Source of the DNA: Sphaerochaeta associata
GTDB taxonomy: Bacteria; Spirochaetota; Spirochaetia; Sphaerochaetales; Sphaerochaetaceae
DNA length: 64,000 bases
NCBI RefSeq assembly: GCF_022869165.1
Contig: NZ_CP094929.1
Coordinates: 434,001 to 498,000, forward strand
Direction of reading: 5' to 3'
The position numbers were made by a program, and so were the translations under genes. Under the pieces are notes generated by a model. It saw only the letters and a list, made by a program, of their open reading frames with translations. It ran no database searches and was not told the DNA's origin. This document shows, one piece after another, positions 3,533 to 38,680 of the stretch (its first letter is position 1; each line of letters starts with the position of its first letter).

Positions 3533-3689
3533 TGTGTAGCGTAAACTAAAAATCCCTAGAAAGATCACTTCATCTTCCTTGGTCTGATCACGGGAAATTC
3601 CCGGGATTGTTCAAAGGGACAGTTGAGAAGCTGCCCTTTGGAAAGTAACCTTTGATGTAGAAACAAATACATTAAAGGAGAAAGGAGAA

Positions 3690-6305: not shown

Positions 6306-6418
6306 TTTCTGGATATCTGCATAGATTCCTGTGCAGATGATAAAACCCGGGAATTTCCCGTGATTAGACACGGGATTCCCTGGTGATTAGACCAAGGATT
6401 TTTGCTTGACAAAACACA

Positions 6419-7306: not shown

Positions 7307-7459
7307 AGATACAATTATACCTATGTTTAGAGCTTTTGTCACGCACTTTCCGACATTATATGCAACTATTTAAAAGAATTATCTAATCCCTAGATATAAC
7401 TGGGACGGGAATTTGAGGTGTCATACTATAATGGGTATACCTAAATAGGGAGACCCAAG

Positions 7460-21466: not shown

Positions 21467-22435
21467 ATGGCTGAGTTTCCAATTGTTACAGTACTAATGA
21501 GCACCTATAACGAACCTGTTGAGTATATTCAGGCTGCTCTCTCTTCTATTCTTAACCAAACCTATTTCAATCTGGAAGTCTTGGTTATTGTCGATAATCC
21601 ACAAAACCTGGAAGCCATTTCATTCCTTAAATCTTCTTCTCAAAAAGATAACCGGATAACAATCCACATCAATGAGCGTAACAGAGGCCTTGTATATTGT
21701 CTTAATTATGGGATCTCCATCGCCAAAGGTGAGTATATTGCCAGAATGGATGCAGATGACATCTCCTTTCATAAGCGAATCGAACAAGAATTGGAGTTTC
21801 TTCTAGAGCATGATCACGATTTGGTATCTACGGGCATTGTTGCCATCGACGAAGGAGGTAAAGTCTTGGAAGGGGAGAAGCATCCCAAATACCAGCCTGG
21901 TCGTAATCTTGAAAAGCAGATGTACTTTGAGAACATGGTAGCTCATCCTACCGTCCTTATACGGAAAAAAGCCTTAGATAGGTTGAATGGCTATCGAACA
22001 ATCAAATCAGCCGAAGACTATGATCTCTGGCTCCGTTTCCTTACTGATGGATATTCAATTGGATTTCTGGAGACACCATTGTTATACCGACGAATCTCGT
22101 ATGAAGGTGTCTCTCGATTGAATAGGTATGTTCAGTTTTTAGGAGCTGAATATGTTCGGTTGCTCTATAGGCAACGAAAGAAATTAGGTCGTGACGATCA
22201 TTCGGAAGAGTATTACAATGCATTTCTAAAAAAACATCACTACTTTGATAAGAAGGCATTGGAGGCATATCATGCTTCCTACAAAGAATATTGCCTGGCA
22301 AAAGAGATGCTAAGAAACGGAAAGAAATTGACAGCATTCAAGCTTTTCGTTCATTCTACAATAGCTTCAAAACTTCGAATGAAGCACGTTTGGGTTATGA
22401 GCCGAAATAAAGTGAGGAACTTTCTTTTTGCCTAG
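21467..22435 (+). CDS. GT2-family glycosyltransferase
   Basis: A 322-residue GT-A enzyme. FPIVTVLMSTYNEPVEYIQAALSSILNQTYFNLEVLVIVDN is the family N-terminus and ARMDADDISFHKRIEQE gives the DxD motif (MDADD) near residue 100. The C-terminal third is basic and without membrane spans. A ribosome-like GAGG lies 7 bases before the ATG. It begins the second transcription unit of the locus. Donor sugar unknown. Confidence 0.9.
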   Translation: MAEFPIVTVLMSTYNEPVEYIQAALSSILNQTYFNLEVLVIVDNPQNLEAISFLKSSSQKDNRITIHINERNRGLVYCLNYGISIAKGEYIARMDADDISFHKRIEQELEFLLEHDHDLVSTGIVAIDEGGKVLEGEKHPKYQPGRNLEKQMYFENMVAHPTVLIRKKALDRLNGYRTIKSAEDYDLWLRFLTDGYSIGFLETPLLYRRISYEGVSRLNRYVQFLGAEYVRLLYRQRKKLGRDDHSEEYYNAFLKKHHYFDKKALEAYHASYKEYCLAKEMLRNGKKLTAFKLFVHSTIASKLRMKHVWVMSRNKVRNFLFA

Positions 22436-22453
22436 AGAGCAAAAGAGAACAAC

Positions 22454-23560
22454 ATGGAAACTTTACTATTCTACATTTCCAATATTTCGAAAGGTGGTGC
22501 CCAACGGGTCATCACCACGCTTTCAAATCATTTTTCTGAAAAATATCACGTTATTCTTGTAACAACTACCGTCGGAGAAGGAACATATCCTCTGAATCCG
22601 AATATTACTCATCTATCGTTGGATTTTGCTGCAGAAGACATAAAAGCGAACAAGCTTACAAAGAATCGTAAGCGAAATATACGGTTCAAACAAATAATAC
22701 AAAGGTATCAACCTTCTGTAATTATTACCTTTCTTGAGCGGGAAATCTTGAGGGTACTGTACTTGAAACCTCAGCTCTCCGTACCTGTAATCATTTCATT
22801 CAGAAATGATCCCAATGTTGACTATTCCTCTTGGCTGCAACGGTTCGCTATCATGAGATTGATCAAACGAGCCGACGGCATCGTATTTCAGACTCCTGAT
22901 GCCAAACAGTTTTTTACTGGTCATTATTCTAGTAAGGACACAATAATTCCTAACCCTATACATCCAACTTTCCTTAAAGAGAGGGCCATTGGGTCTCGTG
23001 ATGCACGTATTGTAACCGTAGGGAAGTTATTCCCTCAGAAGAATCATGCACTGCTCATTCGCTCGTTTGCACATATTGCATCAGAATTTCCTGAACATAC
23101 CCTAGAGATATACGGTGAAGGAGAATTGAGAAACTCATTGCAGCAGTTGATTGATTCATTTGGATTGCAATCAAGAATTTTCCTTAAGGGTGTCAGAAAT
23201 GATATCGAGAAAGTATTGGAGCAAGCAGCTCTCTTTGTGCTCTCCTCGGACTATGAGGGTGTCTCCAACGCTCTCATGGAGGCAATGGCTTTAGGGCTTC
23301 CTGTGATCTCCACCGATTGTCCTTGCGGAGGCTCAGCCATGCTTATCAGACACGGAGTAAATGGATTATTGGTTCCAGTTGGGGATGAGAGAGCATTAGT
23401 TGAATCAATGCGTTCAATGGTAAATGACCCTGTTTATGCTGAAGCACTTGGTACAGTAGCTAGAAAGATTCGCCAGGAAGTAGATCCCCAAGTGGTATTT
23501 GCATCTTGGGAATCCTTCATTCATGATGTAGTCAGTATGGGTAAAGAAATCGATGAGTAG
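22454..23560 (+). CDS. GT4-family glycosyltransferase
   Basis: 368 residues. The start FYISNISKGGAQRVITTLSNHF is the glycine-rich acceptor loop of the GT4 group that includes N-acetylgalactosamine transferases. IVTVGKLFPQKNHALLIRSFA begins the donor domain, and SSDYEGVSNALMEAMALGLPVISTDCPCGG is the E-x7-E nucleotide-sugar site (EGVSNALMEAMA). It overlaps the next gene by 8 bases. Likely adds a hexose or HexNAc to the growing unit. Confidence 0.9.
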   Translation: METLLFYISNISKGGAQRVITTLSNHFSEKYHVILVTTTVGEGTYPLNPNITHLSLDFAAEDIKANKLTKNRKRNIRFKQIIQRYQPSVIITFLEREILRVLYLKPQLSVPVIISFRNDPNVDYSSWLQRFAIMRLIKRADGIVFQTPDAKQFFTGHYSSKDTIIPNPIHPTFLKERAIGSRDARIVTVGKLFPQKNHALLIRSFAHIASEFPEHTLEIYGEGELRNSLQQLIDSFGLQSRIFLKGVRNDIEKVLEQAALFVLSSDYEGVSNALMEAMALGLPVISTDCPCGGSAMLIRHGVNGLLVPVGDERALVESMRSMVNDPVYAEALGTVARKIRQEVDPQVVFASWESFIHDVVSMGKEIDE

Positions 23561-24464
23561 CATTGCATATAAAATTCGGAAAGGGTTGAAGAATCCTCAT
23601 ATCGTTGGAGAATATCTGCTGGAGAGGAAACTAGCCAGAATTATTCCCGATCGATTATATCTGTCTTGGCTGTATAGGTTAAAGATGGGAATGTCCCTTA
23701 ACTTGAAAAATCCGACAACATTCAATGAGAAACTTCAGTGGTTGAAGCTCCATGACCATAATCTTCTCTATCCTTCCTTGGTCGACAAGTATGAAGTTCG
23801 GCAGTTTGTGAAGGATACAATTGGAGAACAATACTTGATTCCGTTGCTGGGAGTCTATAATACAGTAGATGAGATTGAATTCTCCACTCTTCCTGGAACA
23901 TTCGTTCTCAAGCCAACCCACACTTCTGGTGATGTCATATTATGCAAAGATAAAGATCTGCTTTCTCCTGAATTAACCAAGCAGAAGATGAATATGTGGT
24001 TACAGAAACGCTATTTTTGGGGTCTTCGAGAATGGCCTTATAAACATATTAATCCACGTATTATTTGTGAATCAATGATACAAACTGAAGATGGAAGGAG
24101 TCCAAAGGATTACAAGATTTTTTGTTTTCATGGAGTGCCCAAATTTGCCTTTGTTGCGTCAGATAGGGGAGTCGACACTAAGTTTGATTTCTTTGATGTT
24201 GATTGGAATCGTCAACCTGTCAAACAGCATTACTCTACGAGCAATTATGATTTACCAAAACCTTTGCAATGGGATGAAATGCTTCAATTAGCTAGGAAAC
24301 TCTCACAAGGTATCCCACATGTACGAGTGGATTTTTATATCGATGTTGCAGGACGCATATTTTTTGGAGAACTGACATTTTTCCATTTCTCAGGTTTAGA
24401 AAAATTTGAGCCTGACTCCTATGATACCCTACTGGGTAGTTGGATTGATTTGGCAGCCTTATGA
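23553..24464 (+). CDS. TupA-like ATP-grasp protein of polysaccharide synthesis
   Basis: 303 residues. The stretches YRLKMGMSLNLKNPTTFNEKLQWLKLHD, LKPTHTSGDVILCKD and DYKIFCFHGVPKFAFVASDRG fit the ATPgrasp_TupA family, known from teichuronopeptide synthesis and common in O-antigen loci. ATP-grasp enzymes join a carboxylate to an amine or thiol, so an amino-acid or amide link to a uronic-acid sugar is possible; that is inference. It is fitting that the locus has a UDP-aminouronic acid pathway. It overlaps both neighbours by 4-8 bases. Confidence 0.8.
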   Translation: MSSIAYKIRKGLKNPHIVGEYLLERKLARIIPDRLYLSWLYRLKMGMSLNLKNPTTFNEKLQWLKLHDHNLLYPSLVDKYEVRQFVKDTIGEQYLIPLLGVYNTVDEIEFSTLPGTFVLKPTHTSGDVILCKDKDLLSPELTKQKMNMWLQKRYFWGLREWPYKHINPRIICESMIQTEDGRSPKDYKIFCFHGVPKFAFVASDRGVDTKFDFFDVDWNRQPVKQHYSTSNYDLPKPLQWDEMLQLARKLSQGIPHVRVDFYIDVAGRIFFGELTFFHFSGLEKFEPDSYDTLLGSWIDLAAL

Positions 24465-25951
24465 CAAGAAAACAGAAACTTATTCTAAATACAGCAAGCT
24501 CACTTATTCATCAATTGATTACTGTTGTATGTGGAATCATTCTTCCTCGTGCCTATATCGCATCATTTGGGTCGGAAGTAAATGGCTTGGTTGCTTCCAT
24601 CACCCAATTCATATCCATAATTACCTTCCTGGAATTAGGCGTAGGAGCAGTAGTCCAAGCTGCATTATACTTTCCACTTGCTAAGAAAGAGACTGAGGAG
24701 ATCAGCCGCATTATTATCTCCTCCAATAGGTTTTTTAAAAAGATAGGTGGGATTCTTATCCTTTACTCTCTCGTACTGTTTTTTCTCTACCCTATGTTGA
24801 TTGACACAACACATTCCTTTTTCTATACAGGATCTTTAGTAGCCATTCTTGCACTCAGTGCGTTTGCGCAGTATTTCTTCGGTATTTCTTATCAGCTGTT
24901 ATTACAGGCGGACCAACTCGCTTTTGTCGCCTTGCTCACCAATACCGTAACGGTAATCATAAATACAATAGTTGTCCTGTTGTTGATCAAGTACGAAAAA
25001 TCCGTACAAATTGTAAAACTTGTATCTTCGATGATATTTCTTATTCGTCCAATTATCTTCCAGATTGTTGTAAAAAAACGCTATAGATTGCAGCTTTCCA
25101 TCCCGCTCCATGTTGAGCCAATTAAACAGAAATGGAATGGCATCGCCCAACATATCGCCTCTGTTGTACTCAATAGTACGGATATTGTTGTATTAACCGT
25201 TTTCAGTTCCTTCAGCCTGGTATCGGTATATTCGGTGTATTATCTTGTCGTCAATAGTATTAAGAAAATCTTGATATCCTTTACGTCAGGGTTCCAAGCC
25301 CTCTTTGGCAATATGCTTTCAAATAATGAACTTTCCAAATTGAATCAAGCATTTGAGAAGTTTGAATGGATAATGCATACCTTTGTGACTATTTTCTTCA
25401 CGTGTACCGGGATTCTTATAATCCCCTTTATTATAGTCTATACAGCAACAATTACCGACTATGAATATGTGTATCCGGTCTTTGGTATCCTGCTGGTTGT
25501 TGCACATGCGCTCTATTGTATTCGGCTTCCATACAACCAACTTGTGCTTGCTGCAGGGCATTTCAAAGAGACCCAGACAAGTGCAATTATTGAAGCCAGT
25601 ATAAACATTGTAATCTCGATTGTATTAGTACAAGCATATGGCTTGATTGGTGTTGCATTAGGAACTCTTGTTGCAATGCTTTACCGAACAGTCTATCTGG
25701 CCTGGTATCTCTCAAAAAATATTATAAAGCGCACATTAAGGCATTTCTATCTTCACATAGTTGTAGATGCTATATCTGTAGTGACAATGGTATGTGCTAC
25801 CCAATGGATTACTCTTTCAAGTATTTCCTTCTTTGCTTGGTTTGTTATGGCTCTCAAAGTAGTCCTAATTTGTTCAATTGTTTCTTTCTTGGTAAATGCG
25901 GTGTTTTACCCACGATTACTTAAAGCAATACCGAAGGGAATTATGCGTTGA
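24461..25951 (+). CDS. Polysaccharide flippase (Wzx/MVF-like, second copy)
   Basis: 496 residues with about fourteen hydrophobic spans, starting MTRKQKLILNTASSLIHQLITVVCGIILPRAYIASFGSEVNGLVAS, a variant of the Wzx N-terminus (FGSEVNG) common in Firmicutes and spirochaetes. It is clearly different in sequence from the flippase at 19764. Coupled to the ATP-grasp gene by ATGA. Presumed to export a second lipid-linked glycan. Confidence 0.88.
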   Translation: MTRKQKLILNTASSLIHQLITVVCGIILPRAYIASFGSEVNGLVASITQFISIITFLELGVGAVVQAALYFPLAKKETEEISRIIISSNRFFKKIGGILILYSLVLFFLYPMLIDTTHSFFYTGSLVAILALSAFAQYFFGISYQLLLQADQLAFVALLTNTVTVIINTIVVLLLIKYEKSVQIVKLVSSMIFLIRPIIFQIVVKKRYRLQLSIPLHVEPIKQKWNGIAQHIASVVLNSTDIVVLTVFSSFSLVSVYSVYYLVVNSIKKILISFTSGFQALFGNMLSNNELSKLNQAFEKFEWIMHTFVTIFFTCTGILIIPFIIVYTATITDYEYVYPVFGILLVVAHALYCIRLPYNQLVLAAGHFKETQTSAIIEASINIVISIVLVQAYGLIGVALGTLVAMLYRTVYLAWYLSKNIIKRTLRHFYLHIVVDAISVVTMVCATQWITLSSISFFAWFVMALKVVLICSIVSFLVNAVFYPRLLKAIPKGIMR

Positions 25952-26065: not shown

Positions 26066-28792
26066 GTGACGTCATTTTTATATACTGTTATCGTATATCC
26101 GATAGAATTACTTGTTGAATTGCTTTTTGTCTTCTTCTTTAAAGCTTTTGATAGTACCGGGTTTGCCATAGCTGGAATCAGTCTGATGGTAAGCTTGCTT
26201 TCTCTTCCCCTCTATCATATTGCCGATCAATTGCAGAAGAAAGAGCGGGACATGCGCATACAAATGCAGAATGGAATCCAGAGAATCAAATCAACCTTTA
26301 AGGGCGATGAGCAATACATGATTCTCTCTACTTTCTACAGGCAACACCATTATCATCCTGCATATGCTCTTCGTAGTTCTGTCAGCCTTCTCATTCAGGT
26401 TCCATTCTTTATTGCTGCCTATCAGTTTCTTTCTCATCTTCCCCATTTGCAGGCTGAAAGCTTTCTTTTCATCAAGGATCTGGGGCAACCTGATCATATG
26501 TTCATGCTCGGTTCTCTTCCAATAAATGTACTTCCATTGATAATGACCCTAATCAACATAGCAGCCGGTGCAATCTATACAAAAGGATTCCCTCTGCGAG
26601 ATAAAGTTCAGTTGTATGGTATGGCTGGGTTATTTCTTATACTTCTGTATCAGTCTCCAGCGGGGTTGGTTTTCTACTGGACCCTGAACAATGTTTTCTC
26701 ATTGGTAAAAAATATCTTTTATAAAATGAAGCAACCCTTGAAGGTGTTGTATGTTACGGCTGTCGTTGCAAGTGTTGGATTAACAGTAGCCATACTTGTT
26801 ATAAAATCAAATTTCCCTCTTAGCAAACAGCTGGTACTTTTTGCAGGTTGTGGAGGGATAATTTCCCTTCCATTTCTTGTAAAAATCGTGGGATTTATTG
26901 AGAAAAGGTATCTCTCTACCTTCTCAATGAAAAGATCAAGCGTTTTCAATGTCTATATTTTATCAATCCTGCTTCTATGGTTCCTTAGTGGCATTGTGGT
27001 GCCATCAAGCCTGATACTTTCTTCTCCTATCGAATTTGCATTCACTGGAACCGTTGAGAATCCTCTTTCCTACATGTACCATACTGCCTCATTTTTCTTG
27101 GGTTTATGTGTGGTCTGGCCTTTGTTTTTGTATGCAATGGCCAGTAGAAAAATGAGAGGGTTCTTTTCAATTATCTTTTTTATACTTTCTCTAACAGCAA
27201 TAATTAATCTTTTCATCTTCAAGGGCGACTATGGCCTTGTAAGCAAAGTATTATTGTACGATGAGCCGGCACGTCTTTCCGCTTCCTTGATCCAAACGGT
27301 ACTTCCCATTTTCATAACTATTATTCTATCAATCGGCACATTTGCTTGTATTCGAAACGGGTGGTCAAAGGTGCTTACCAGTATACTCACGATTCTCATC
27401 CTTACTTCTGCGGGAATGGGTGTATATGCTGCAGTGAATATCCAAATAGCTTATACTGCCCATGCTAAGAATGTGGCAGAGAATGTGGATAAGAGTACTC
27501 TTCATGAGATCAATCCAGTGATTCCTCTCAGCAAAACTGAAAAGAATGTAGTCGTCCTCTTTCTTGATAGAGCTATCAACTCTTTCTTGCCAATCGTATT
27601 CGAACAGTTTCCCGAGCTCACTGAGCAGTATAGAGGATTTGTCTATTATCCCAATACTGTTTCTCCTGGAAGGGTAACGCTTTCTGGTTCTCCTCCAGTT
27701 ATGGGAGGATATGAGTACACTCCGGATGCAATGAACCTGCGTAGTACCGAACGTTTGGTAGACAAGCACAACGAAGCTTCATTGGTGCTTCCAAGAATTT
27801 TTTCCGAAGCGGGATACCGTGCTTCTGTATTTGATCCTCCAATGCCTAACCATAAATGGTCAAATGACTTTACAGCCTTTCGTCCGTATCCAGAAGTACA
27901 GGTTCGTGGCTTGAATGGTGTATATTCCTATAAGTATAAAATGGAGCATCCTGAGAACGAATTATGGGGACCTGACTACGAGAGCAGAATCATCAAGCGT
28001 CGTCTTCCTATGTTTTCATTTCTAAGAACCATTTATCCTGCAGTTCGAAGTCTTTTGTATTACGAGGGCACATACTTCCTGATGGATGAGAATACGCAAA
28101 ACACCAACAGTTTTATTAATGCATATTCTGTGCTGTATTACCTTCCCCAGCTTACTGCGATTGATAGCGCAAAAGGATCATATGTCTTTCTTGTCAATGA
28201 TACTCCACACGAACCAATTTTCTTACAAGCCCCAGAATATGTGCCAGTTGTAAAAGTAACAGATATATCGAACCCTCTCCAAGCTGATACGTATTACGAT
28301 CAGAAAGCTCAGATACATTATCATGCCAATGTAGCGGCACTACGAAAGGTAGGTGAATGGTTGGAATTTCTCAAACAAGAGGGAGTATACGACAACACGA
28401 GAATTATCATTGTTGCTGATCATGGGAATAATTTGAAAGCACCGGTTTTCAAAGATTTTGAGCAACTAAAAGAGGTCCTTGCGGCATACCACCCATTGTT
28501 CATGGCTAAGGATTTCTATGCATCCGAAGAATTTTCTACTGACACTCAGTTTATGACAACTGCGGACGTTCCTGCCATGGCTATCAAGGATCTACCCGTT
28601 TCAACCATAAATCCTTTCACTAAAAATGACTTGTTTTCTGTTATTGAGAAAGATGTAGTTAATGTGTACTCATCCTCTTCAGAGCCAAACAACAATAGGG
28701 GTAACACATTTAGTTTTAATTATTCAGAGAGCTTTTCTGTACATGATTCAGTGTTTGATGAGGCTAATTGGAAGCACATTAGTCCAAAATGA
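26066..28792 (+). CDS. YidC/Oxa1-like domain fused to an alkaline-phosphatase-superfamily (sulfatase/phosphotransferase-like) domain
   Basis: 908 residues from a GTG preceded by AGAGGT. Residues ~1-220 look like a YidC/Oxa1/Alb3 insertase core: IELLVELLFVFFF, SLPLYHIADQLQKKERDMR, VPFFIAAYQFLSHL, and YQSPAGLVFYWTLNNVFSLVKNIFY, the last being the family's typical penultimate helix. Residues ~225-470 add more membrane spans. From ~490 on is a periplasmic domain: VVVLFLDRAINSFLP (first metal Asp), GRVTLSGSPPVMGG (possible Thr/Ser nucleophile) and IIVADHGNN (Asp-His metal pair), as in LtaS, EptA or sulfatase-like enzymes. The next gene is a CDP-glycerol-type transferase. Role: perhaps transfer or removal of a phospho-group on the glycan; not established. 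Confidence 0.8.
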   Translation: MTSFLYTVIVYPIELLVELLFVFFFKAFDSTGFAIAGISLMVSLLSLPLYHIADQLQKKERDMRIQMQNGIQRIKSTFKGDEQYMILSTFYRQHHYHPAYALRSSVSLLIQVPFFIAAYQFLSHLPHLQAESFLFIKDLGQPDHMFMLGSLPINVLPLIMTLINIAAGAIYTKGFPLRDKVQLYGMAGLFLILLYQSPAGLVFYWTLNNVFSLVKNIFYKMKQPLKVLYVTAVVASVGLTVAILVIKSNFPLSKQLVLFAGCGGIISLPFLVKIVGFIEKRYLSTFSMKRSSVFNVYILSILLLWFLSGIVVPSSLILSSPIEFAFTGTVENPLSYMYHTASFFLGLCVVWPLFLYAMASRKMRGFFSIIFFILSLTAIINLFIFKGDYGLVSKVLLYDEPARLSASLIQTVLPIFITIILSIGTFACIRNGWSKVLTSILTILILTSAGMGVYAAVNIQIAYTAHAKNVAENVDKSTLHEINPVIPLSKTEKNVVVLFLDRAINSFLPIVFEQFPELTEQYRGFVYYPNTVSPGRVTLSGSPPVMGGYEYTPDAMNLRSTERLVDKHNEASLVLPRIFSEAGYRASVFDPPMPNHKWSNDFTAFRPYPEVQVRGLNGVYSYKYKMEHPENELWGPDYESRIIKRRLPMFSFLRTIYPAVRSLLYYEGTYFLMDENTQNTNSFINAYSVLYYLPQLTAIDSAKGSYVFLVNDTPHEPIFLQAPEYVPVVKVTDISNPLQADTYYDQKAQIHYHANVAALRKVGEWLEFLKQEGVYDNTRIIIVADHGNNLKAPVFKDFEQLKEVLAAYHPLFMAKDFYASEEFSTDTQFMTTADVPAMAIKDLPVSTINPFTKNDLFSVIEKDVVNVYSSSSEPNNNRGNTFSFNYSESFSVHDSVFDEANWKHISPK

Positions 28793-28811: not shown

Positions 28812-30047
28812 ATGATACTTTTCTATATAGACCCCGGTACAGGGAGCATGCTTTTTTCCATAGTCATTGGTTTGGTGACTATGCTCTATTTTCTTGGAAA
28901 AGCAGCATTCATTAAGGTAAAGTTTATTCTCTCTGGAGGAAAAGCAACCACTTCGAAAAATCATTATCCTTTGGTCATTTATTCTGAAAGCAAGCGGTAT
29001 TGGAATGTTTTTAAGCCAGTTCTAGATGCATTGGAAAGAAAAGCTATTCCAACTGTGTATTACGCATCATCAGAAGACGACCCAGTCTTCTCAGTAGCAT
29101 ATAAACATATTACAAGTGAGTTTATTGGGGAAGGCAACAAAGCTTTCACTCGATTGAATTTCCTTGAGGCAGATGTGTGCTTGATGACTACTCCTGGTCT
29201 GGATGTCTATCAGCTCAAGCGCTCAAGAGGCGTTAAGCACTATGCCCATATCCTGCACTCAGTTGATGACGCAACAGGATATCGACTTTTTGGGTTAGAC
29301 TATTTTGATTCTGTACTCCTTTCTGGCGAATATCAAAAAGCGCATATTCGGCTTTTGGAAACACAAAGAGGTATCAAAGAAAAAGAGTTGGTAGTTGTTG
29401 GATGTCCCTACCTTGATGAGCTGCAAAAGAAAGTAGCAGATCTGCCTAAACGAAAGAATGAATCCTTTACGGTACTCGTGGCTCCTTCATGGGGAAAAAG
29501 TGGGATTCTGAGTAGATATGGAGCATCTCTTCTTGATTCCTTGGTACAAACAGGATTCTCAATTATTGTGAGACCTCACCCACAATCGAAACAATCAGAA
29601 AAAGAGATACTTGAAGCTCTAGAAATGCGATACAAGGCCGCTCAGAATCTCGAGTGGGATTATTCTAATGAGAATCTGAATGTCCTTTCTCGGTCGGACA
29701 TCATGATATCTGACTTTTCAGGAGTTATCTTTGATTATGCGTTTCTCTTTAATAAACCGTTTCTTTACGTGAATAGTAATTTTGATGCTCGACCGTATGA
29801 TGCATACGATCTAGAAGAACAGCCGTGGAAATTCCGGGTCCTTCCTGAAATTGGAGTTGAACTTCAAGAAAACGACTTTGGGAGAATCGGTCAACTTATT
29901 CTTGAAACAAGCAAGAGTTCGATACTTGAGGAAAAAAGAAAGAATGCCAATGCTACAGCATGGCAATACAAAGGGAAGAGCGGCGAGATGGTTGCCGATT
30001 TCTTGGTTGGTGTTCTTGCTGGACTGAAAGAAAGCAAGGATATGTAA
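28812..30047 (+). CDS. CDP-glycerol:glycerophosphotransferase-family protein
   Basis: 411 residues with a hydrophobic N-terminus (YIDPGTGSMLFSIVIGLVTMLYFLG, one span) followed by a GT-B-like TagB/TagF-type domain: KHYAHILHSVDD, VLVAPSWGKSGIL, IIVRPHPQSKQSEKE and MISDFSGVIFDYAFLFNKPFLYV. RPHP and SDxSGxxFDY are the conserved motifs of the family (Pfam Glyphos_transf). It would transfer glycerol phosphate or a related polyol phosphate from a CDP donor. Good ribosome site AAAGGAGA. It starts 19 bases after the YidC-fusion gene, so the two are probably expressed together. No tagD-like CDP-glycerol synthetase is in the window. Confidence 0.85.
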   Translation: MILFYIDPGTGSMLFSIVIGLVTMLYFLGKAAFIKVKFILSGGKATTSKNHYPLVIYSESKRYWNVFKPVLDALERKAIPTVYYASSEDDPVFSVAYKHITSEFIGEGNKAFTRLNFLEADVCLMTTPGLDVYQLKRSRGVKHYAHILHSVDDATGYRLFGLDYFDSVLLSGEYQKAHIRLLETQRGIKEKELVVVGCPYLDELQKKVADLPKRKNESFTVLVAPSWGKSGILSRYGASLLDSLVQTGFSIIVRPHPQSKQSEKEILEALEMRYKAAQNLEWDYSNENLNVLSRSDIMISDFSGVIFDYAFLFNKPFLYVNSNFDARPYDAYDLEEQPWKFRVLPEIGVELQENDFGRIGQLILETSKSSILEEKRKNANATAWQYKGKSGEMVADFLVGVLAGLKESKDM

Positions 30048-30159: not shown

Positions 30160-31407
30160 ATGTCTAATTCTCGTTCTATGGACCTCTTTGACCATATATG
30201 TGATGCCTCACTGTTAATCTTTTTTCCTGTTTTGGTAGTTCTTGGAACAAATGCCAAGAAGTTTTTTATACCGGTAGAGATTCTGTTCTTGTCGGTTTTT
30301 ACCATTAGGTTCTTTGTAAAACGGTCTACACTCTCTTTATATACTATTTGGACAATAGGGCTTTCGCTGTTGGCGCTAGTCTCTACAACGTATGCACCAA
30401 ACCAAACAGCTGCTATGCGTTGGGCTATTTCTGTTATACAAGTTGTAATCTTTGGCAATTTGCTGGTCCCCTATTTTCGAGACGATAAAAGAAATGTCCA
30501 TGTTTTCTTCCTTTCGTTTATACTTTCTGCTGTCGGATTAGGATTTCGCTTGTGGATGTCAGCTCCTCCTGAGCAATTGATGAATACTCGTCTGGGTGAA
30601 TCAATTGGTTTTAACGCAAATTTTGTGGGTTTCATATTTGCCATTGCGGCACTTATAAACTTGTATTACGTTATTCTGGAAAAACGCTGGATAGCTCTTC
30701 CTTTGTTTTTTGTGTTAAGTGTAATTGGTTTGTTCTCAGGTTCACGTAAAACCATGATAATTCTTTTTGTTGGTATAGTTCTCTTGTCAATTTTATCATC
30801 TCGAAAACCACATACAATTTTCATATCGATGATTCTTAGCTTGTTATTTGTTGCTGGGTTTCTCCTGATATCCTTTCAATGGGAGCCATTGAAAAATATA
30901 ATTGGATATAGAATTCAAATTTTCTTAACAACTTTTACAGGCCAATCGATTGATGCGAGTGCAAATGAACGAATAGAGATGATTCGCCTCGGGATTGATA
31001 TGATCAAGCAAAAACCATTTTTTGGTTGGGGCTTGCATGCATTTTCAGACTTAGAGAAATTTGGAGTATATTCTCATAATAATTATATAGAAATTGCTGT
31101 CTCTTGGGGCATGTTTGGCCTAATTTGGTACTATCTATTTTTGGGTTATGTAATTATAAAAGGAATCGGGATTCTGCTTTCTCGACATCGTACTAGCCTT
31201 GTGGTTTTCTCTGTGATGATGCTACTCATTCTTTGCTTGGATGATTTCGGTCGTGTTCGTTTTTATGATGAGGTTTCACACATATTATATGCACTTTGTT
31301 ATGCAATTATTGTTATGCATCTTCCACTTAGAGGTATCGATATCATTAGCTTGTTGATCAAACCTTTCCAGCGGTTTATTCATATAAAATCCCTCAGACA
31401 AGAGTAA
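30160..31407 (+). CDS. O-antigen polymerase / ligase-like membrane protein (second copy)
   Basis: 415 residues, about eleven hydrophobic spans. The Wzy_C-type loop holds RIEMIRLGIDMIKQKPFFGWGLHAFSDLEKFGVYSHNNYIEIAVSWGMFGLI, with the GWG and SHNNYIE pattern typical of O-antigen ligase and polymerase proteins. It differs from the one at 18364. Its TAA stop (31405-31407) forms part of the 7-bp target duplication of the IS element that follows, so the coding region is just preserved. Likely polymerises the second glycan, or attaches it to its carrier. Confidence 0.85.
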   Translation: MSNSRSMDLFDHICDASLLIFFPVLVVLGTNAKKFFIPVEILFLSVFTIRFFVKRSTLSLYTIWTIGLSLLALVSTTYAPNQTAAMRWAISVIQVVIFGNLLVPYFRDDKRNVHVFFLSFILSAVGLGFRLWMSAPPEQLMNTRLGESIGFNANFVGFIFAIAALINLYYVILEKRWIALPLFFVLSVIGLFSGSRKTMIILFVGIVLLSILSSRKPHTIFISMILSLLFVAGFLLISFQWEPLKNIIGYRIQIFLTTFTGQSIDASANERIEMIRLGIDMIKQKPFFGWGLHAFSDLEKFGVYSHNNYIEIAVSWGMFGLIWYYLFLGYVIIKGIGILLSRHRTSLVVFSVMMLLILCLDDFGRVRFYDEVSHILYALCYAIIVMHLPLRGIDIISLLIKPFQRFIHIKSLRQE

Positions 31408-31486: not shown

Positions 31487-31515
31487 GTGACAAAAGCTCC
31501 AAACATAGGTATAAT
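31487..31515 (+). promoter_or_regulatory. Transposase promoter of element A
   Basis: GTGACA (31487-31492), 17 bp, TATAAT (31510-31515). The -10 is perfect and the -35 matches five of six. The same sequence is present in copy 1 near 7314-7342. It shows that the GTG at 31487 cannot be the translation start. Confidence 0.75.
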
Positions 31516-31522
31516 TGTATCT

Positions 31523-33181
31523 ATGATAGATGCCAATGCAAAACCGATGAAAATCATCCGTGTCACCAACAAGAAGAACGGTGTCACCTACCTCTACGAG
31601 GACCAGGCCTTCTGGAACAGCGAGAAGAAGCGCGGCGAGCACAAGCGAAAGTGCATCGGCCGACTCGGTCCGGATGGAAGCGAGATATACAACGATTTCT
31701 ACCTGGCCAGGAAGGAAGCCTCCAAGGCCGAGAATCCGCTTGTCTCGAAAACCACCCTGATGGGACAGAACCTCATCCTGGACAAGGTGGTCAAGGACGT
31801 CGGCATACAGCCTGTTCTGAAGGAAGCCTTCGGAGCCGACGATGCCGATGCCATCCTTCAGCTTGCACGGTACAGCGTCTGCGAGGGCAAGGCCCTCAGC
31901 AGAGCCGAGGACTGGCTGAACGATCGTGGTTTCAACGGCAACGCTCTTTGCTCGCAGCGGATCAGCGAGCTGCTTGCCTCCCTGTCCGACGACAGGCGCA
32001 ACACCTTCTTCAAGCTTTGGATTGCCAAGCAGGCGAAGAAAAAGGCACTGCTTTTCGATATAACCTCGATTTCGTCCTATGGAAAAAACAACACCTATGT
32101 GGAGCGGGGGTACAACCGGGACCACGAGAACCTGAGGCAGATAAACCTCGGCCTGCTCAGCGCCCACTCGTCGAACGTCCCTCTCTGGTACTCGGAATTG
32201 CCCGGGAGCATGTCCGATTCACTCGTCCTCGACCATGTGCTGCGCAGCCTGGAAAAGCTCGATGTGAAGGACATCAACCTGGTCGGCGACCGGGGCTTCT
32301 ACAGCGAGGCGAACCTCAGGAACATAGCGGATAAGGGACAGAAGTTCACCATCCCCGTCCCCTCCAGCCTCAAGTGGCAGAAGGAATTGATCGACAAGGT
32401 CAGGCCCTCAATCCGAAGACCCGCCAACATCATCCGCAATCCCGAGGACGACAAGTCCTACATCTATGGCGTCACCGACTACAAGACCGAGTCCTACGGC
32501 AGGACCTGGAGGCATGTCTACTTCGACCCCGTCAGGAAGGAGCAGGACATCGCATCGCTGATGCTCAAGCTGAGAAAGTGCGAGGAGGAGCTTGCAGGCG
32601 GGGATGCCTTCGAGAAGCACAGGAACCTGTACGACACCTACTTCACCGTCAAGGATACCCCCAAGCGGGGAAGGAAGGTCAGCCTGAACGAGGAGGCCGT
32701 CAATGCCTACATCGACGGCTACAGCGGGTTCTGGATCATCCTCACCAATGCACAGAAGGATGCATCCAAGGCCCTGGGGCACTACAACCGCAGGTGCGAC
32801 ATCGAGCTGCACTTCGACGACATGAAGAACCTCTTGGACTGCAACAGGCTCAACGTGCACACAGAGAAGACCATGAAGGGCAGGCTTTTCGTCAACTTCA
32901 TCACCCTCATCCTGCTCAACGACCTGAGAGGCAAGGTCTCGGCCATCAAGCCCAGGAACAGGAAGTACTGGGATTTCAAGGACATGCTGAACAAGGTGTC
33001 GACCTATTCCAGAATCCACTTCACCGGCACCTACAAGGACCTGTGGACGGTGCCCACCAAGGCCCAGAGGCTGATCTTCAGCCTCTTAAAGATAGAGTAC
33101 CATTGGAAGGGAAAGATAGTGAATCTTGAGAAGCCAATGGAGTCTGAAGAAGATGACGAACAGGAAGACGAGGAGGCCTAG
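31523..33181 (+). CDS. IS1634-like DDE transposase (intact)
   Basis: About 552 residues from ATG 31523 (MIDANAKPMKIIR); the ATG at 31547 (MKIIRVTNKKNG) is an alternative, and both lie downstream of the visible promoter. Catalytic region: LLFDITSISSYG (Asp), LVGDRGFYSEANL (Asp) and HYNRRCDIELHFDDMKN (the Y-R-E type motif of the IS4 superfamily). The acidic C-terminus EEDDEQEDEEA is unusual. This is the only intact transposase for element A in the window and could mobilise copy 1 in trans. Confidence 0.95.
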   Translation: MIDANAKPMKIIRVTNKKNGVTYLYEDQAFWNSEKKRGEHKRKCIGRLGPDGSEIYNDFYLARKEASKAENPLVSKTTLMGQNLILDKVVKDVGIQPVLKEAFGADDADAILQLARYSVCEGKALSRAEDWLNDRGFNGNALCSQRISELLASLSDDRRNTFFKLWIAKQAKKKALLFDITSISSYGKNNTYVERGYNRDHENLRQINLGLLSAHSSNVPLWYSELPGSMSDSLVLDHVLRSLEKLDVKDINLVGDRGFYSEANLRNIADKGQKFTIPVPSSLKWQKELIDKVRPSIRRPANIIRNPEDDKSYIYGVTDYKTESYGRTWRHVYFDPVRKEQDIASLMLKLRKCEEELAGGDAFEKHRNLYDTYFTVKDTPKRGRKVSLNEEAVNAYIDGYSGFWIILTNAQKDASKALGHYNRRCDIELHFDDMKNLLDCNRLNVHTEKTMKGRLFVNFITLILLNDLRGKVSAIKPRNRKYWDFKDMLNKVSTYSRIHFTGTYKDLWTVPTKAQRLIFSLLKIEYHWKGKIVNLEKPMESEEDDEQEDEEA

Positions 33182-33377: not shown

Positions 33378-34499
33378 ATGCAAGGTATTTCTATTCTGAT
33401 TCTCTCCAACGACGTTGACTATCTCTATACGCTGCGTTTGGAGACCATTGAAAGACTTCTTCAATCAGGGGCTTCCGTTGCTCTCTCCGCACCATACAAC
33501 GACCGTGTTGAGTTCTTTGAGAAGTTGGGATGTACGTTTCATCCTGTTGAATTTACTCCAAGAGGGAAGAACCCTTTCTCCAATCTTGGAGTTTTGCTCA
33601 AATACTTCAGGCTGATTAAACAGACTAAGCCTGATGTTGTACTGACCTATACCATTAAGTCCAATATCTACGGTGGCTTGGTTTGTAGAATACTGAAGGT
33701 TCCTCAGATAGCTAACATGACAGGTCTTGGTAAAGCTCTGATGGATGAGAATCTCGTCCAGAAAGTAGTGTTAACATTGCTTCGTGTTGCATTTAAAAAG
33801 GCACGGACTGTATTTTTGCAGAATGCAAGAGACCTGCAGTATTTTCTTGACCACCGCATCACCACCAAAGAGCAGTCGGTTCTTATCCCAGGTTCAGGCG
33901 TCAATCTCGCCCGCCATCCGTTGGAACCGTATCCAGAAGATGATGGGTCGATTCGTCTCATCTATATTGCCCGTATAATTAAGGACAAAGGGATTGAGGA
34001 GATGATGGCAGCGGCAAAGGCCATTCATCAGAAGTATCCTTACTTCAGCTGCGATATAGCAGGTTTTATTGGAGAGGCAGTGTATGAACCTCAATTGGCT
34101 GACTACTCAGCCTCAGAGGCTGGAAAGTACTTAGGATTTCAGAAGGACATTCATAGTCTGATCAAGAAAAGTCATGCAGTGGTACTGCCTTCCTATCACT
34201 TGGAAGGTATTGCCAATGTTCTCTTGGAAGGAGCTTCTGCAGGAAGACCTGTGTTGTCAACAGACCATATAGGCTGTCGTGATACATTCGATGATGGAGT
34301 ATCGGGCATTATGTTTGCCCCGCGCTCTGTAGAAGCCTTGGTTGAGGCGATTGAGAAGTTCATTCATCTTCCCTACGACCAGAAACAAGCTATGGGTCTG
34401 GCTGGAAGGAAGAAAGTTGAACGAGAATTTGACCGCGAGATTATTGTGAATGAGTATATGAAGGCTGTAGCGAAGATTGTAGGGCAGAAGGCGGAATGA
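33378..34499 (+). CDS. GT4-family glycosyltransferase
   Basis: 373 residues. GISILILSNDVDYLYTLRLETIERLLQSGASVAL is the N-terminal Rossmann part, with the KPDVVLTYTIKSNIYGGLVCRILKVP segment typical of the CapM/WbnK/PglA-like GT4 subgroup. IYIARIIKDKGIEEMMAAA begins the donor domain; PSYHLEGIANVLLEGASAGRPVLSTDHIGC gives the E-x7-E site (EGIANVLLEGAS). The 172 bases upstream hold a TATAAT at 33284-33289 that may start a new transcript after the IS. The gene is followed after one base by the next glycosyltransferase. Confidence 0.88.
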   Translation: MQGISILILSNDVDYLYTLRLETIERLLQSGASVALSAPYNDRVEFFEKLGCTFHPVEFTPRGKNPFSNLGVLLKYFRLIKQTKPDVVLTYTIKSNIYGGLVCRILKVPQIANMTGLGKALMDENLVQKVVLTLLRVAFKKARTVFLQNARDLQYFLDHRITTKEQSVLIPGSGVNLARHPLEPYPEDDGSIRLIYIARIIKDKGIEEMMAAAKAIHQKYPYFSCDIAGFIGEAVYEPQLADYSASEAGKYLGFQKDIHSLIKKSHAVVLPSYHLEGIANVLLEGASAGRPVLSTDHIGCRDTFDDGVSGIMFAPRSVEALVEAIEKFIHLPYDQKQAMGLAGRKKVEREFDREIIVNEYMKAVAKIVGQKAE

Positions 34500-34500
34500 T

Positions 34501-35634
34501 GTGAACAAAAGCCAAATGAGTAATCAACCCATTCGAGTCCTTCAGGTACTAGGCGGCCTGTTTCACGGTGGTGCCGAAGCCATGATTATGAATCTGTATC
34601 GCAATGTCGATACCCGGGTTGTGCAATTCGATTTCCTTGTCCACACAGATCAAGAAGGCGTCTTTGACAAAGAAATACTTGATCGCGGAGGGGTGGTCCA
34701 TCATGCTCCAGCATATAAGGGAATCAATCATTTTGCTTATAAGGCATGGTGGAAGACATTCTTAAGACAACATCCAGAATATGGGTGTATTCATTTCCAT
34801 ATCCGCGGTACTTCGGCCATTGCAATTCCGATTTGCAAGCGATTAGGTAGAACTACAATCATTCATGCCCACAGTACTTCAAATGGGAAGAGTTTAGTTT
34901 CGTTCATAAAAGGGCTTTTCCAATTGTCCTTACGAAGAGATGCCGATTACCTCTTTGCCTGTTCCGAACCCGCAGGAAGATGGTTGTTTGGGCAAAAGAC
35001 CTTGCAAGCTCCCAATTTCCATCTATGGAAGAACGCGATTGATACAAGTAGGTATCAATTCTCCCAAGCCACTCGAAATCGAGTTCGTTCAGAACTCGGA
35101 CTGGAAGATTCCTTTGTTGTAGGACATATTGGACGTTTTATCGATGCAAAGAATCATGGATTTCTCCTGGAGATCTTTCAGGAGGTTCTCAAGCGAGAGC
35201 CTCATGCCAGGTTATTGTTAATCGGTGACGGCCCAAACCGCAAAGCGATTGAGGATAAAGTGGAACTACTGAGATTGGGCCAGGCGGTTATCTTTGCCGG
35301 ATTCCGATCTGATGTTCCTGAAATGCTTCAGGCAATGGATGTATTTTTGTTTCCTTCTCTGTATGAAGGGTTACCAGTTACTTTGATTGAGGCTCAAGCA
35401 AGTGGATTGCCAAGTGTTGTATCAGATACGATTGCAAAAGAAATTGAAGTGACCGATTTGATTCAATTCGTTTCACTTGAAAGTGTTGCAAAAGCATGGG
35501 CTGATATAATTTTTACGATATCGAGAGACAATATTCGCAAAGATACCAGTAAGTCAATTATTGAAGCAGGGTATGATATCAAGCAATCGGCGAAGGAATT
35601 GCAAGCTTTCTACCTTTCGTGTGACATTTGTTAA
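34501..35634 (+). CDS. GT4-family glycosyltransferase (EpsF-like)
   Basis: 377 residues from the GTG at 34501, preceded by an AGGCGGA ribosome-like site; an ATG at 34516 is possible. RVLQVLGGLFHGGAEAMIMNLYRN is the GG-A-E motif of the EpsF-type GT4 proteins. VGHIGRFIDAKNHGFLLEIF opens the donor domain and PSLYEGLPVTLIEAQASGLPSVVSD has the E-x7-E (EGLPVTLIEAQA). Likely adds a sugar of the second repeat unit. Confidence 0.88.
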   Translation: MNKSQMSNQPIRVLQVLGGLFHGGAEAMIMNLYRNVDTRVVQFDFLVHTDQEGVFDKEILDRGGVVHHAPAYKGINHFAYKAWWKTFLRQHPEYGCIHFHIRGTSAIAIPICKRLGRTTIIHAHSTSNGKSLVSFIKGLFQLSLRRDADYLFACSEPAGRWLFGQKTLQAPNFHLWKNAIDTSRYQFSQATRNRVRSELGLEDSFVVGHIGRFIDAKNHGFLLEIFQEVLKREPHARLLLIGDGPNRKAIEDKVELLRLGQAVIFAGFRSDVPEMLQAMDVFLFPSLYEGLPVTLIEAQASGLPSVVSDTIAKEIEVTDLIQFVSLESVAKAWADIIFTISRDNIRKDTSKSIIEAGYDIKQSAKELQAFYLSCDIC

Positions 35635-35757
35635 TAAGATATTCCGTAGATATTTTTCGCAAGACTTTGAGATGCTAGTAGGTATATATCAAGAATGAGA
35701 GAATCTAGAGTATGTTTGACGTATTACCTTGAGGAATGCGAATAGGAGGAGTGGGTG

Positions 35758-37572
35758 ATGCAAGCAATAATCTTGGCTGCTGGAATGGGTAAGCGATTAA
35801 AAGAGTTAACCAAGGATAATACAAAATGTATGATAGAGGTGAATGGAGAGACACTCATTGAGAGAATACTCACCCAGCTTGATAGTTTGAATCTCGAACG
35901 TATTGTGCTTGTGATTGGATATAAAGGTGAAAAATTAGCATCGTACGTAAAATCTCTTCCCATCAAAACTGAAATAATTTTCATCACCAACCCGATTTAT
36001 GATAAGACCAATAATATCTATTCTCTTTACTTGGCCAAAGAATATCTTCTTGAACAGGACACCTTGCTACTTGAGTCGGATCTTATTATTGAGGATGGAA
36101 TTCTTAATGTGTTGATTCAGAACCCAGATCCCAATATTGTTCTGGTGGCGAAGTATGAAAGTTGGATGGATGGTACTGTCGTCACGCTGGATGAAAGTCA
36201 ACAGATTAAAAGTTTCCTTGGTAAGAAGGATTTTCATTTTTGCGATACCATGACTTATTACAAAACAGTTAACATTTATAAATTCAGCAGAGCTTTTTCT
36301 ATGACTCATTATGTCCCATTCTTGGAAGCATATTGCAAAGCTTTGGGGAACAACGAGTACTATGAGCAAGTGCTAAAAGTCATTGCACTGCTGGACAATC
36401 CTGGAATCAAGGCATTGGTTTTGGATACGGAAAAATGGTATGAGATTGATGATATCCAAGACCTTGATATCGCCCAGACCCTGTTCGAAAAGAACAAGAA
36501 TACAAGATTTGAGAAAATGAACGCACGGTATGGAGGATTTTGGAGATTTCCTCGACTTTTAGATTACTGCTATCTGGTGAATCCGTATTATCCTCCTACC
36601 AAGTTGATTGACGAAATGCAGGCGAGTTTCACTAGTTTGATAACACAATATCCATCGGGACAAAAAGTAAACAATCTTCTTGCAGCCAATTATTATGGAC
36701 TTCATAGAGAGAATGTAATTGTCGGTAATGGTGCCGCTGAGCTGATCAAAGCAATTATGGAAAACACTGAAGGAATCATCGGAATACTTTCACCTTCGTT
36801 TGATGAGTATAGAAATCGTGTATCAGGAAATAGAATCTCACTGTTTACCGTACAATCAGATGATTTCTCGTATACTGCCGATCAGATTATTTCTCACTTT
36901 CAGAATAAACCAATCTCAACCTTGCTACTGATAAATCCCGATAACCCATCTGGAAACTACATAGAACAGCATGATGTATTGAAACTCGCTTCTTGGACAC
37001 AAGAGCGAGGTATCATATTCTTGGTCGATGAATCGTTCAGCGATTTTGCCTTGGCAAAAGAACCAAGCTCACTCTTGGACCAATCTACTCTAGAAAGGTA
37101 CACAAATTTAGTTGTAATAAAGAGTATTTCCAAATCATTTGGAGTTCCTGGCGTTCGTCTCGGCCTTTTGGCAACAACGAATAAGACTATTCTCTCAAGT
37201 GTGTCTAAAAATGTCTCCATCTGGAATATCAATTCCTTTGGAGAATTCTATATGCAGATTTGGGGAAAATATCGTGCAACCTATGAGCATGCATTGGTGA
37301 TGCTCAAGGATGAACGAGATCGTTTAGCAACAGCATTGAATCAAATTGATTATCTTACGGTGTTTCCTTCACAAGCCAACTATATTATGTGTGAGGTAAA
37401 AGGCCCGAAGAAGGCCTATGACTTGGCAGTAGAATTATTGGATTCTCATAATATTCTTATTAAGGACTTATCGAGCAAACGTGGAATCTCGCCACGGCAG
37501 TGTATTCGAATTGCTGTTCGCAACAAGGAAGATAATGATGCATTGATTAATGCTTTGAGAAGTCTTGTCTAA
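35758..37572 (+). CDS. Fused nucleotidyltransferase-aminotransferase (PntC / LicC-like)
   Basis: About 604 residues from the ATG at 35758, 7 bases after AGGAGGA. Residues 1-235 are an NTP transferase: MQAIILAAGMGKRLKELTKDNTKCM holds the nucleotide loop, then ETLIERIL, NNIYSLYLAKEYL and LLLESDLIIEDGIL, resembling LicC-type CTP:phosphocholine cytidylyltransferases. Residues ~250-604 are a class I/II PLP aminotransferase (GNGAAELIKAIM, LINPDNPSGN, LVDESFSDF, SISKSFGVPGVRLGLL with Lys459). From memory, PntC of Treponema denticola is a fusion of this kind that makes and CDP-activates 2-aminoethylphosphonate. No PEP mutase is in the window, so a phosphoethanolamine or phosphocholine-like product is also possible. 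Confidence 0.8.
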   Translation: MQAIILAAGMGKRLKELTKDNTKCMIEVNGETLIERILTQLDSLNLERIVLVIGYKGEKLASYVKSLPIKTEIIFITNPIYDKTNNIYSLYLAKEYLLEQDTLLLESDLIIEDGILNVLIQNPDPNIVLVAKYESWMDGTVVTLDESQQIKSFLGKKDFHFCDTMTYYKTVNIYKFSRAFSMTHYVPFLEAYCKALGNNEYYEQVLKVIALLDNPGIKALVLDTEKWYEIDDIQDLDIAQTLFEKNKNTRFEKMNARYGGFWRFPRLLDYCYLVNPYYPPTKLIDEMQASFTSLITQYPSGQKVNNLLAANYYGLHRENVIVGNGAAELIKAIMENTEGIIGILSPSFDEYRNRVSGNRISLFTVQSDDFSYTADQIISHFQNKPISTLLLINPDNPSGNYIEQHDVLKLASWTQERGIIFLVDESFSDFALAKEPSSLLDQSTLERYTNLVVIKSISKSFGVPGVRLGLLATTNKTILSSVSKNVSIWNINSFGEFYMQIWGKYRATYEHALVMLKDERDRLATALNQIDYLTVFPSQANYIMCEVKGPKKAYDLAVELLDSHNILIKDLSSKRGISPRQCIRIAVRNKEDNDALINALRSLV

Positions 37573-37639: not shown

Positions 37640-38638
37640 TCAACCCTTACTACTCTTTCGGGGAATCAACTTCGACTGCAGTACATGTTGGCTCTTGGAG
37701 TAGATGCCGGTGTGGATCACCTGCTTGAGAAGGCTTACCCCCAGCATACCCATCTCCTGTAGCGGTAATTCAAAGGTGGTGATGGGCGTATTCCAGAACT
37801 CTGAGAAGTCGCGGTTGTCAAAACCAACCACTCGTACCTGGTTCGGAATATGGATGTTCATTTTTTGGAGTGCTGAAATAGCACCGGCTGCAATATAGTC
37901 ATTGGCGCAGAATATGCCATCGGTTTGGGGATGGTCGTTCATCAGTATTTGGGCAGCCTCAAAGCCATGATCGAAGTCATAGTTGCCGTAATAGTTGTTT
38001 TGTGGCATCTCAAGCTTCAGTTCTTTCGTTCTCTGAGAGAATCCCTTCAGACGATCCTGTACACTCAATCGATCCTCAGGACCACAAATCATCGCAGGGT
38101 GGCGCATTCCGCATCCATACAAGTGTTCCGCCGCCTGATAACCCCCCGTAGTATTGTCTACTACCACGCTGATCATCTCCTGGGCCGCCATATTGATTGA
38201 AACAATCGGAATGTCTGAGTTCTGCGTATCGAGATTGAACTCCTTCCAAATAGGAATATGGTGACAGAATAGAATTCCCTCGACCTTATGGCTCTTTAGG
38301 AAGTTGTACGCCTTCTTCAAGTCATTGCCAAACTCAACACCGCTGACGAAGAACAAGGAGTACTGGCCACCGGACAGGCCATGCTCGATACCCCGCACTA
38401 TCTGGTTTACGAAGGTCTCGGTGATATCGGCTGCCAAGCACCCAATAATCCCGGAGTTCCCCCGCTTCATGCGTGACGCACTCCAGGAAGGAACATAGCC
38501 AAGCTGCTCGATTGCCTCGAGCACCTTCTTGCGGGTGGCTTCACCGACCGGGCGCTTGCCGTTGAGGGTATGCGTAACCGTAGCAGGGGAAACCCCGGCA
38601 GCTTTCGCTACATCTACGATTGTCACTACATCACGCAT
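37640..38638 (-). CDS. LacI-family transcriptional regulator
   Basis: 332 residues from the ATG at 38638, right after AGGAGGG; a TTG further upstream is less likely. The N-terminus VTIVDVAKAAGVSPATVTHTLNGKRPVGEATRKKV is a textbook LacI helix-turn-helix with hinge (SASRMKRG), followed by a periplasmic-binding-like effector domain (FVNQIVRGIEHGL, DGIFCANDYIAAGAI, VVGFDNRDFSEFW). It is the last gene of the minus-strand GH31 operon and probably represses it through the palindrome at 44114-44123. The effector is likely an oligosaccharide breakdown product. Confidence 0.93.
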   Translation of the reverse strand: MRDVVTIVDVAKAAGVSPATVTHTLNGKRPVGEATRKKVLEAIEQLGYVPSWSASRMKRGNSGIIGCLAADITETFVNQIVRGIEHGLSGGQYSLFFVSGVEFGNDLKKAYNFLKSHKVEGILFCHHIPIWKEFNLDTQNSDIPIVSINMAAQEMISVVVDNTTGGYQAAEHLYGCGMRHPAMICGPEDRLSVQDRLKGFSQRTKELKLEMPQNNYYGNYDFDHGFEAAQILMNDHPQTDGIFCANDYIAAGAISALQKMNIHIPNQVRVVGFDNRDFSEFWNTPITTFELPLQEMGMLGVSLLKQVIHTGIYSKSQHVLQSKLIPRKSSKG

Positions 38639-38680
38639 ACGCCCTCCTCTTGGCAAGTGTAAAGCCTCTAACAGCCTTTG

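Follow-up and report, generated by a model that had tools for sequence, protein, structure and literature searches.

The surface-polysaccharide locus analysed here raises the question of what a single protein, in which a LicC-type nucleotidyltransferase (NTase) is fused to a PLP domain, does in a Sphaerochaeta associata genome that encodes no PEP mutase. An earlier note on this DNA had read the gene as a PntC-like fusion, stranded in the locus, that makes an amine and activates it with CTP, as in the route to 2-aminoethylphosphonate (AEP). Our analysis retains this amine-plus-CTP logic and gives up AEP, since pepM is absent and the PLP domain appears to belong to another family: with a probability of roughly 0.7, the fusion would be a self-contained CDP-ethanolamine synthase that starts from O-phosphoserine and serves glycan decoration. 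The window, that is, the whole 64,000-nucleotide stretch of DNA that was analysed, lies in a genome of one contig (3.55 Mb, 99.7% complete) and carries the following features.

21467 to 25951, plus strand: two glycosyltransferases, an ATP-grasp-like protein and a flippase (by eye from the sequence and by synteny; order as in the sister genomes G019 and G011)
26066 to 28792, plus strand: YidC-like membrane domain with a weak sulfatase/alkaline-phosphatase-like half, the constant partner of the Glyphos_transf gene
28812 to 30047, plus strand: CDP-glycerol-type transferase (Glyphos_transf, PF04464; Pfam and synteny), candidate user of CDP-ethanolamine
30160 to 31407, plus strand: O-antigen ligase/polymerase (Wzy_C; Pfam)
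31487 to 33181, plus strand: inserted IS transposase that separates the transferase from what follows downstream in the locus, with near-identical frames elsewhere in the window
33378 to 35634, plus strand: two group 1 glycosyltransferases upstream of the fusion (Pfam)
35758 to 37572, plus strand: fusion gene, NTase and predicted PLP decarboxylase-type domain, 604 aa, a single open frame
35758 to 36477, plus strand: N-terminal LicC/PntC-type cytidylyltransferase domain, residues 1-240 (Pfam, alignment; PMC6697681)
36520 to 37569, plus strand: C-terminal fold-type-I PLP domain, residues 255-604, assigned to the CobD/SMUL_1544 type by profiles, alignment and structure comparison
37132 to 37134, plus strand: codon of Lys459, the predicted PLP Schiff-base lysine, equivalent to CobD Lys216 by alignment
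37640 to 38656, minus strand: LacI-type regulator that closes the locus; its counterpart beside the pepM-ppd-PntC/AEPT cassette of a sister species (G002) is 86% identical

The fusion gene starts with an ATG at 35758 behind a good ribosome-binding site (AGGAGG at 35744-35749), and its product matches PF12804 (NTP_transf_3) over residues 3-133 (5e-11) and PF00155 (Aminotran_1_2) over residues 292-600 (4e-36). The two-domain fusion is genuine and no artefact, because full-length relatives at 54-70% identity exist in several phyla. Scanning one genome per species yielded 567 confirmed stretches, and the best 80 of these 567, used as our sample of loci, hold near-full-length relatives at 54-69% identity in Spirochaetota, Bacillota and Bacteroidota. 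Additionally, one relative at 50% identity was found in Fusobacterium vincentii, and distant full-length relatives (30-35%) in Rahnella, Erwinia, Gloeothece, Priestia and Pseudonocardia; E. coli genomes gave no DNA match. Because the fusion occurs in 80 sampled loci of three phyla without pepM nearby, the description of the gene as stranded does not hold. The LicC-type NTase and the PLP domain with Lys459, which had been recognised earlier, were both confirmed by the Pfam matches and by conservation: Lys459, within KSISKSFGVPG, is invariant in 55 of 55 relatives, and the invariant catalytic residues of the two domains among the 55 aligned members also include R13, K23, E106, D108 and R584. The AlphaFold2 model of the fusion has a mean pLDDT of 90.8. 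Our search of the open-access literature returned nothing on this fusion or on CDP-ethanolamine from phosphoserine, and no assay of any member of the fusion family.

The N-terminal domain carries the G-X-G-X-R...K motif of PF12804 nucleotidyltransferases, with NTK in place of PK, and in the alignment with Treponema denticola PntC (Tde-PntC) its R13, K23, E106 and D108 correspond to R15, K25, E104 and D106. In the PntC structure Glu104 lies where it can reach the primary amine of AEP, and the corresponding residue of LicC is Asp105, which is smaller (PMC6697681). The fusions have Glu106 at that site in 55 of 55 cases, so Asp105 of the LicC choline pocket is not matched, and Glu106 would fit a small primary amine equally well on a phosphate ester or on a phosphonate. 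These residues bear on whether the protein could be a CTP:phosphocholine enzyme of the LicC type whose PLP partner is unrelated. The presence of LicD neighbours in other genomes and the rank of LicC as second match of the N-terminal domain would suit such an enzyme, but Glu106 in place of Asp105 argues against it, as does the decarboxylase-type partner, which makes sense for ethanolamine and not for choline, and we consider it the least probable of all the alternatives. The choline-binding residues whose conservation, together with a lack of pepM, the earlier note would have taken as a sign of phosphocholine or phosphoethanolamine were not seen as far as the comparison went, and a small primary amine fits best. 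In the LicC/LicD pathway CTP likewise activates a phospho-alkylamine, and LicD-type transfer is shared by many fusion relatives; however, the amine-pocket residue differs and the fusion would make the amine itself. LicD was found in 42 of the 80 loci (best 80 of 567) and in 9 of 26 genomes of the genus, and was not found in this genome.

A likeness to PntC was also the basis for reading the protein as an enzyme that converts phosphonoacetaldehyde to CMP-2-aminoethylphosphonate (CMP-AEP). PntC-AEPT (T. denticola TDE1415, PDB 6PD1/6PD2) shares with the fusion the domain order, the N-terminal family, the R/K/Glu104-type residues and a spirochaete surface context, and Foldseek ranks it first for the full-length model. 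However, its PLP domain is a class V AEP transaminase and its route needs pepM and ppd, whereas the PLP domain of the fusion appears to be of class I/II decarboxylase type and Pfam and NCBIfam models detected no pepM in the complete 3.55 Mb genome. Therefore pepM is also absent from the window, as the earlier note had stated. Furthermore, neither pepM nor ppd occurs within flanks of up to 10 kb in the 80 loci (best 80 of 567). Two of 25 fusion-bearing genomes have pepM over the cut-off: in G074 it lies on a different contig from the fusion, and in G010, a MAG of the genus Sphaerochaeta, a pepM-ppd cluster with its own NTase (L122:2178-9190) sits about 5 kb from a second, truncated fusion copy at the contig end. 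The latter arrangement favours CMP-AEP and counts against CDP-ethanolamine; a Rhizobium cluster with distant split homologues (L130) that also has aepX likewise counts against CDP-ethanolamine. On the other side, the true PntC-AEPT with pepM and ppd sits in sister genomes of the genus, once in the same slot. The remaining sampled genomes of the genus with pepM over the cut-off (G002, G016, G018, G025) lack the fusion, G010 alone having both. The absence of pepM leads us to reject the AEP route for this genome; CMP-AEP as the product is thus highly improbable and close to refuted here, the sole escape being uptake of a phosphonate from outside.

The PLP domain had been called an aminotransferase. 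A fold-type-I PLP domain is indeed present, but its features indicate class I/II and the CobD/SMUL_1544 decarboxylase type and not the class V AEP transaminase of PntC. Its best PDB sequence match is SMUL_1544 (PDB 6OUX, 2.5e-48), entitled 'a decarboxylase'. The AlphaFold2 model matches CobD (PDB 1LC5) with Z 37.1, SMUL_1544 with Z 36.4 and most HisC entries with Z 33-35, margins small enough that the fold alone cannot decide. CobD-like and HisC-like PLP domains are also hard to tell apart by sequence: the NCBIfam CobD model scored above the HisC model in eight of eight fusions, with every CobD score under the cut-off (178.9 bits for the window fusion, cut-off 290.55 bits). In the domain tree, a branch with support 0.985 separates the fusions and SMUL_1544 from CobD and HisC. 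Additionally, Phe427, Trp489 and Arg/Lys588 of the fusions agree with CobD and SMUL_1544, whereas HisC has Tyr, Tyr and Gly/Ser, in an alignment made here with a small reference set rebuilt from printed alignments, in which the decarboxylase side is represented by three references, one of them (3FTB) annotated as HisC; Ser426 is common to the fusions and SMUL_1544. SMUL_1544 and CobD, the nearest relatives of the domain by sequence and fold, are of amino-acid phosphate decarboxylase type, but they are stand-alone enzymes of cobamide synthesis without a nucleotidyltransferase. SMUL_1544 has reportedly been assayed on phosphoserine. It was proposed to make ethanolamine phosphate, and the phosphoserine activity is quoted there solely as a proposal (PMC4585668).

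The difficulty of separating the two types gives room to a different reaction, in which the PLP domain would be an aminotransferase that turns dihydroxyacetone phosphate into serinol phosphate and the fusion would make CDP-serinol. HisC models match the fusion well, and Cj1437 of Campylobacter is HisC-like. Cj1437, an enzyme of a capsule locus, does carry out this reaction (PMC12409886). However, residues 427, 489 and 588 of the fusion are of decarboxylase type and not of HisC type, SMUL_1544 is the best match of the domain, and the phosphoserine-linked DUF1015 neighbour suits decarboxylation better, so that CDP-serinol seems an unlikely product.

In this regard, a DUF1015 gene lies directly beside the fusion in three of the 80 loci (L006, L010, L011) and in G058, and a DUF1015 gene is present in 24 of 25 fusion-bearing genomes versus 3 of 14 control genomes. 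The DUF1015 proteins of L010 and L011 have an ADGHHR motif, and in L116, L118 and L119 long DUF1015 genes adjoin serA- and serC-like genes. DUF1015 has been discussed together with the ParB fold, which is also the fold of the free serine kinases SerK and SbnI (PMC12704722). PDB sequence searches of DUF1015 against solved structures gave no match, SerK included. The neighbour, a putative serine kinase, points to phosphoserine, and DUF1015 may be a phosphoserine-related enzyme. This also bears on O-phospho-L-threonine as the substrate, which would lead to CDP-1-aminopropan-2-ol. Threonine phosphate is a substrate of CobD, and CobD ranks first among the structural matches, but the closest sequence is SMUL_1544, with its proposed product ethanolamine phosphate, and the associations with SerC and DUF1015 favour phosphoserine; we hold phosphothreonine to be quite improbable.

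For the proposed CDP-ethanolamine synthase, we infer substrate, product, order of steps and transferase as follows. The genome encodes SerC, which supplies O-phosphoserine, and phosphatidylserine decarboxylase was not found in it. The PLP domain would decarboxylate the serine-phosphate moiety of O-phospho-L-serine and the LicC/PntC-type domain would transfer CMP from CTP to the phosphate, giving CDP-ethanolamine. The route may pass through CDP-serine, because FrbH is described as cytidylylating before decarboxylating. FrbH of Streptomyces rubellomurinus is a cytidylyltransferase-decarboxylase fusion that cytidylylates and decarboxylates 2-amino-4-phosphonobutyrate in the FR-900098 pathway (PMC8976061, PMC8007912). 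It resembles the fusion in architecture, with an N-terminal cytidylyltransferase and a C-terminal PLP decarboxylase-type domain, and its substrate is the CH2-for-O isostere of O-phosphoserine. Unlike FrbH, which works in a pepM pathway to an antibiotic, the window fusion has no pepM, sits in a surface-polysaccharide locus and would use the natural phosphate ester. Lysines 458, 568 and 573 of FrbH (PMC8007912) are spaced as Lys459, Lys569 and Lys574 of the fusion; this spacing is a lead only, and was dropped as distinctive of FrbH, because some HisC enzymes also have Lys at 569. By architecture, FrbH is the closest precedent for the fusion; we do not claim family membership, because FrbH belongs to a pepM pathway and the comparison covered architecture and lysine spacing.

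The most telling result of our analysis is an exchange of cassettes in one sister species. The G002 locus runs from LicD through a YidC-like protein, the CDP-glycerol-type transferase and another YidC-like protein to pepM, ppd, PntC-AEPT and the LacI regulator, with the models for pepM, ppd and AEP aminotransferase all over their cut-offs and the aminotransferase of class V. The LacI regulators of the window and of G002 are 86% identical and the CDP-glycerol-type transferases 80%, and in the window the fusion occupies the slot of the cassette, between the sugar locus and the LacI regulator. In G016, pepM and an NTase likewise adjoin the same transferase pair, and a different sugar locus of G018 contains pepM-ppd-PntC/AEPT. 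The Glyphos_transf gene, whose presence upstream of the fusion had been pointed out and was borne out by PF04464 at 28812-30047, adjoins the fusion in L002, G004, G011 and G019 and is also common to pepM-bearing sister loci; in G011 and G019 the fusion lies directly 3' of the transferase and pepM is absent. Finding the same transferases with either a CMP-AEP cassette or the fusion is what would be expected if the fusion made the phosphate isostere CDP-ethanolamine. The transferase at 28812-30047 would then probably put phosphoethanolamine on the surface glycan, while pepM-ppd-PntC/AEPT, in the same slot and with the same transferase, makes the phosphonate isostere CMP-AEP in the sister species. 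Of the phosphono- or phospho-amine suggested earlier for this glycan, the phospho-amine is thus probable and the phosphono-amine, with no pepM, is not supported.

Two other aspects of the locus deserve mention. The YidC-like protein (26066-28792) has 908 aa with a YidC/Oxa1-like N-terminal domain, and five sister genomes retain it next to the CDP-glycerol-type transferase; L012 combines a YidC-like domain and an apparently similar transferase in one fusion. Its second half was considered as a phosphoethanolamine or LTA-type transferase and gave only weak sulfatase matches. In addition, near-identical transposase frames at 2756-7342, 11561-13821 and 31487-33181 interrupt the polysaccharide region, one copy being split by an IS21-like gene pair.

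The gene neighbourhoods in other genomes suggest a further modification of the amine. Among the 80 loci, an opine dehydrogenase directly adjoins the fusion in 25 and an ornithine-cyclodeaminase-family reductase in 18, usually within a few bases, and the two are almost mutually exclusive, only one locus having both. The linked opine dehydrogenase is nearest to octopine dehydrogenase, and the ornithine-cyclodeaminase-family neighbour to imine-type reductases and alanine dehydrogenase. Octopine dehydrogenase couples an amine with pyruvate. In many gut Bacillota and Bacteroidota, the adjacent enzyme would probably alkylate the amine reductively to N-(1-carboxyalkyl)ethanolamine phosphate, which LicD would attach. 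N-[(R)-1-carboxyethyl]ethanolamine phosphate, the product expected from the fusion and a pyruvate-using opine dehydrogenase, is known to decorate O-polysaccharides of Proteus mirabilis (PMC9630907), and no description of its biosynthetic genes was found in the literature. This proposed link does not apply to the window, where no opine dehydrogenase lies next to the fusion; that gap and the lack of LicD weigh against the CDP-ethanolamine reading. The one PF02317 gene of this genome (C1:323728) was rejected as acting with the fusion, since it belongs to a different sugar locus and shares only about 20% identity with the linked family.

Distant homologues on three plasmids lie in other settings. 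Plasmid pBM700 of Priestia megaterium has no pepM. Its distant full-length fusion is clustered (L132:2534-10638) with genes for an N-hydroxylase-like protein, an AAC(3)-family acyltransferase, two ATP-grasp proteins and DXP reductoisomerase; the cluster looks like a fosmidomycin-type one built on a phosphate ester and not on a phosphonate, perhaps fosfoxacin-like. On a Rahnella sikkimica plasmid (L131) a CDP-alcohol phosphatidyltransferase gene follows the distant fusion and would give a lipid-type and not a glycan product. Lastly, a plasmid of Rhizobium sp. 007 (L130) brings together aepX, distant split NTase and PLP genes, a CDP-alcohol phosphatidyltransferase and an octopine-dehydrogenase-family gene, which suggests an uncharacterized phosphonate or lipid pathway.

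The fusion is a widespread but unstudied two-domain bacterial enzyme. If our reading is true, many gut and environmental species would obtain CDP-ethanolamine directly from a universal metabolite and would need neither free ethanolamine nor ethanolamine kinase nor lipid turnover for it, and a known glycan substituent would gain a genetic explanation. At roughly even odds, bacteria swap a C-P cassette of three genes (pepM-ppd-PntC/AEPT) for a C-O-P cassette of one gene within the same surface-glycan locus and with the same transferase, and the one-protein route from phosphoserine to CDP-ethanolamine, often coupled to an opine dehydrogenase, widely supplies bacterial glycans with phosphoethanolamine and N-carboxyalkyl-ethanolamine phosphate. 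Phosphonate and phosphate headgroups would then be interchangeable cassettes, and a LicC-like fusion without pepM should therefore not be read as a broken phosphonate pathway.
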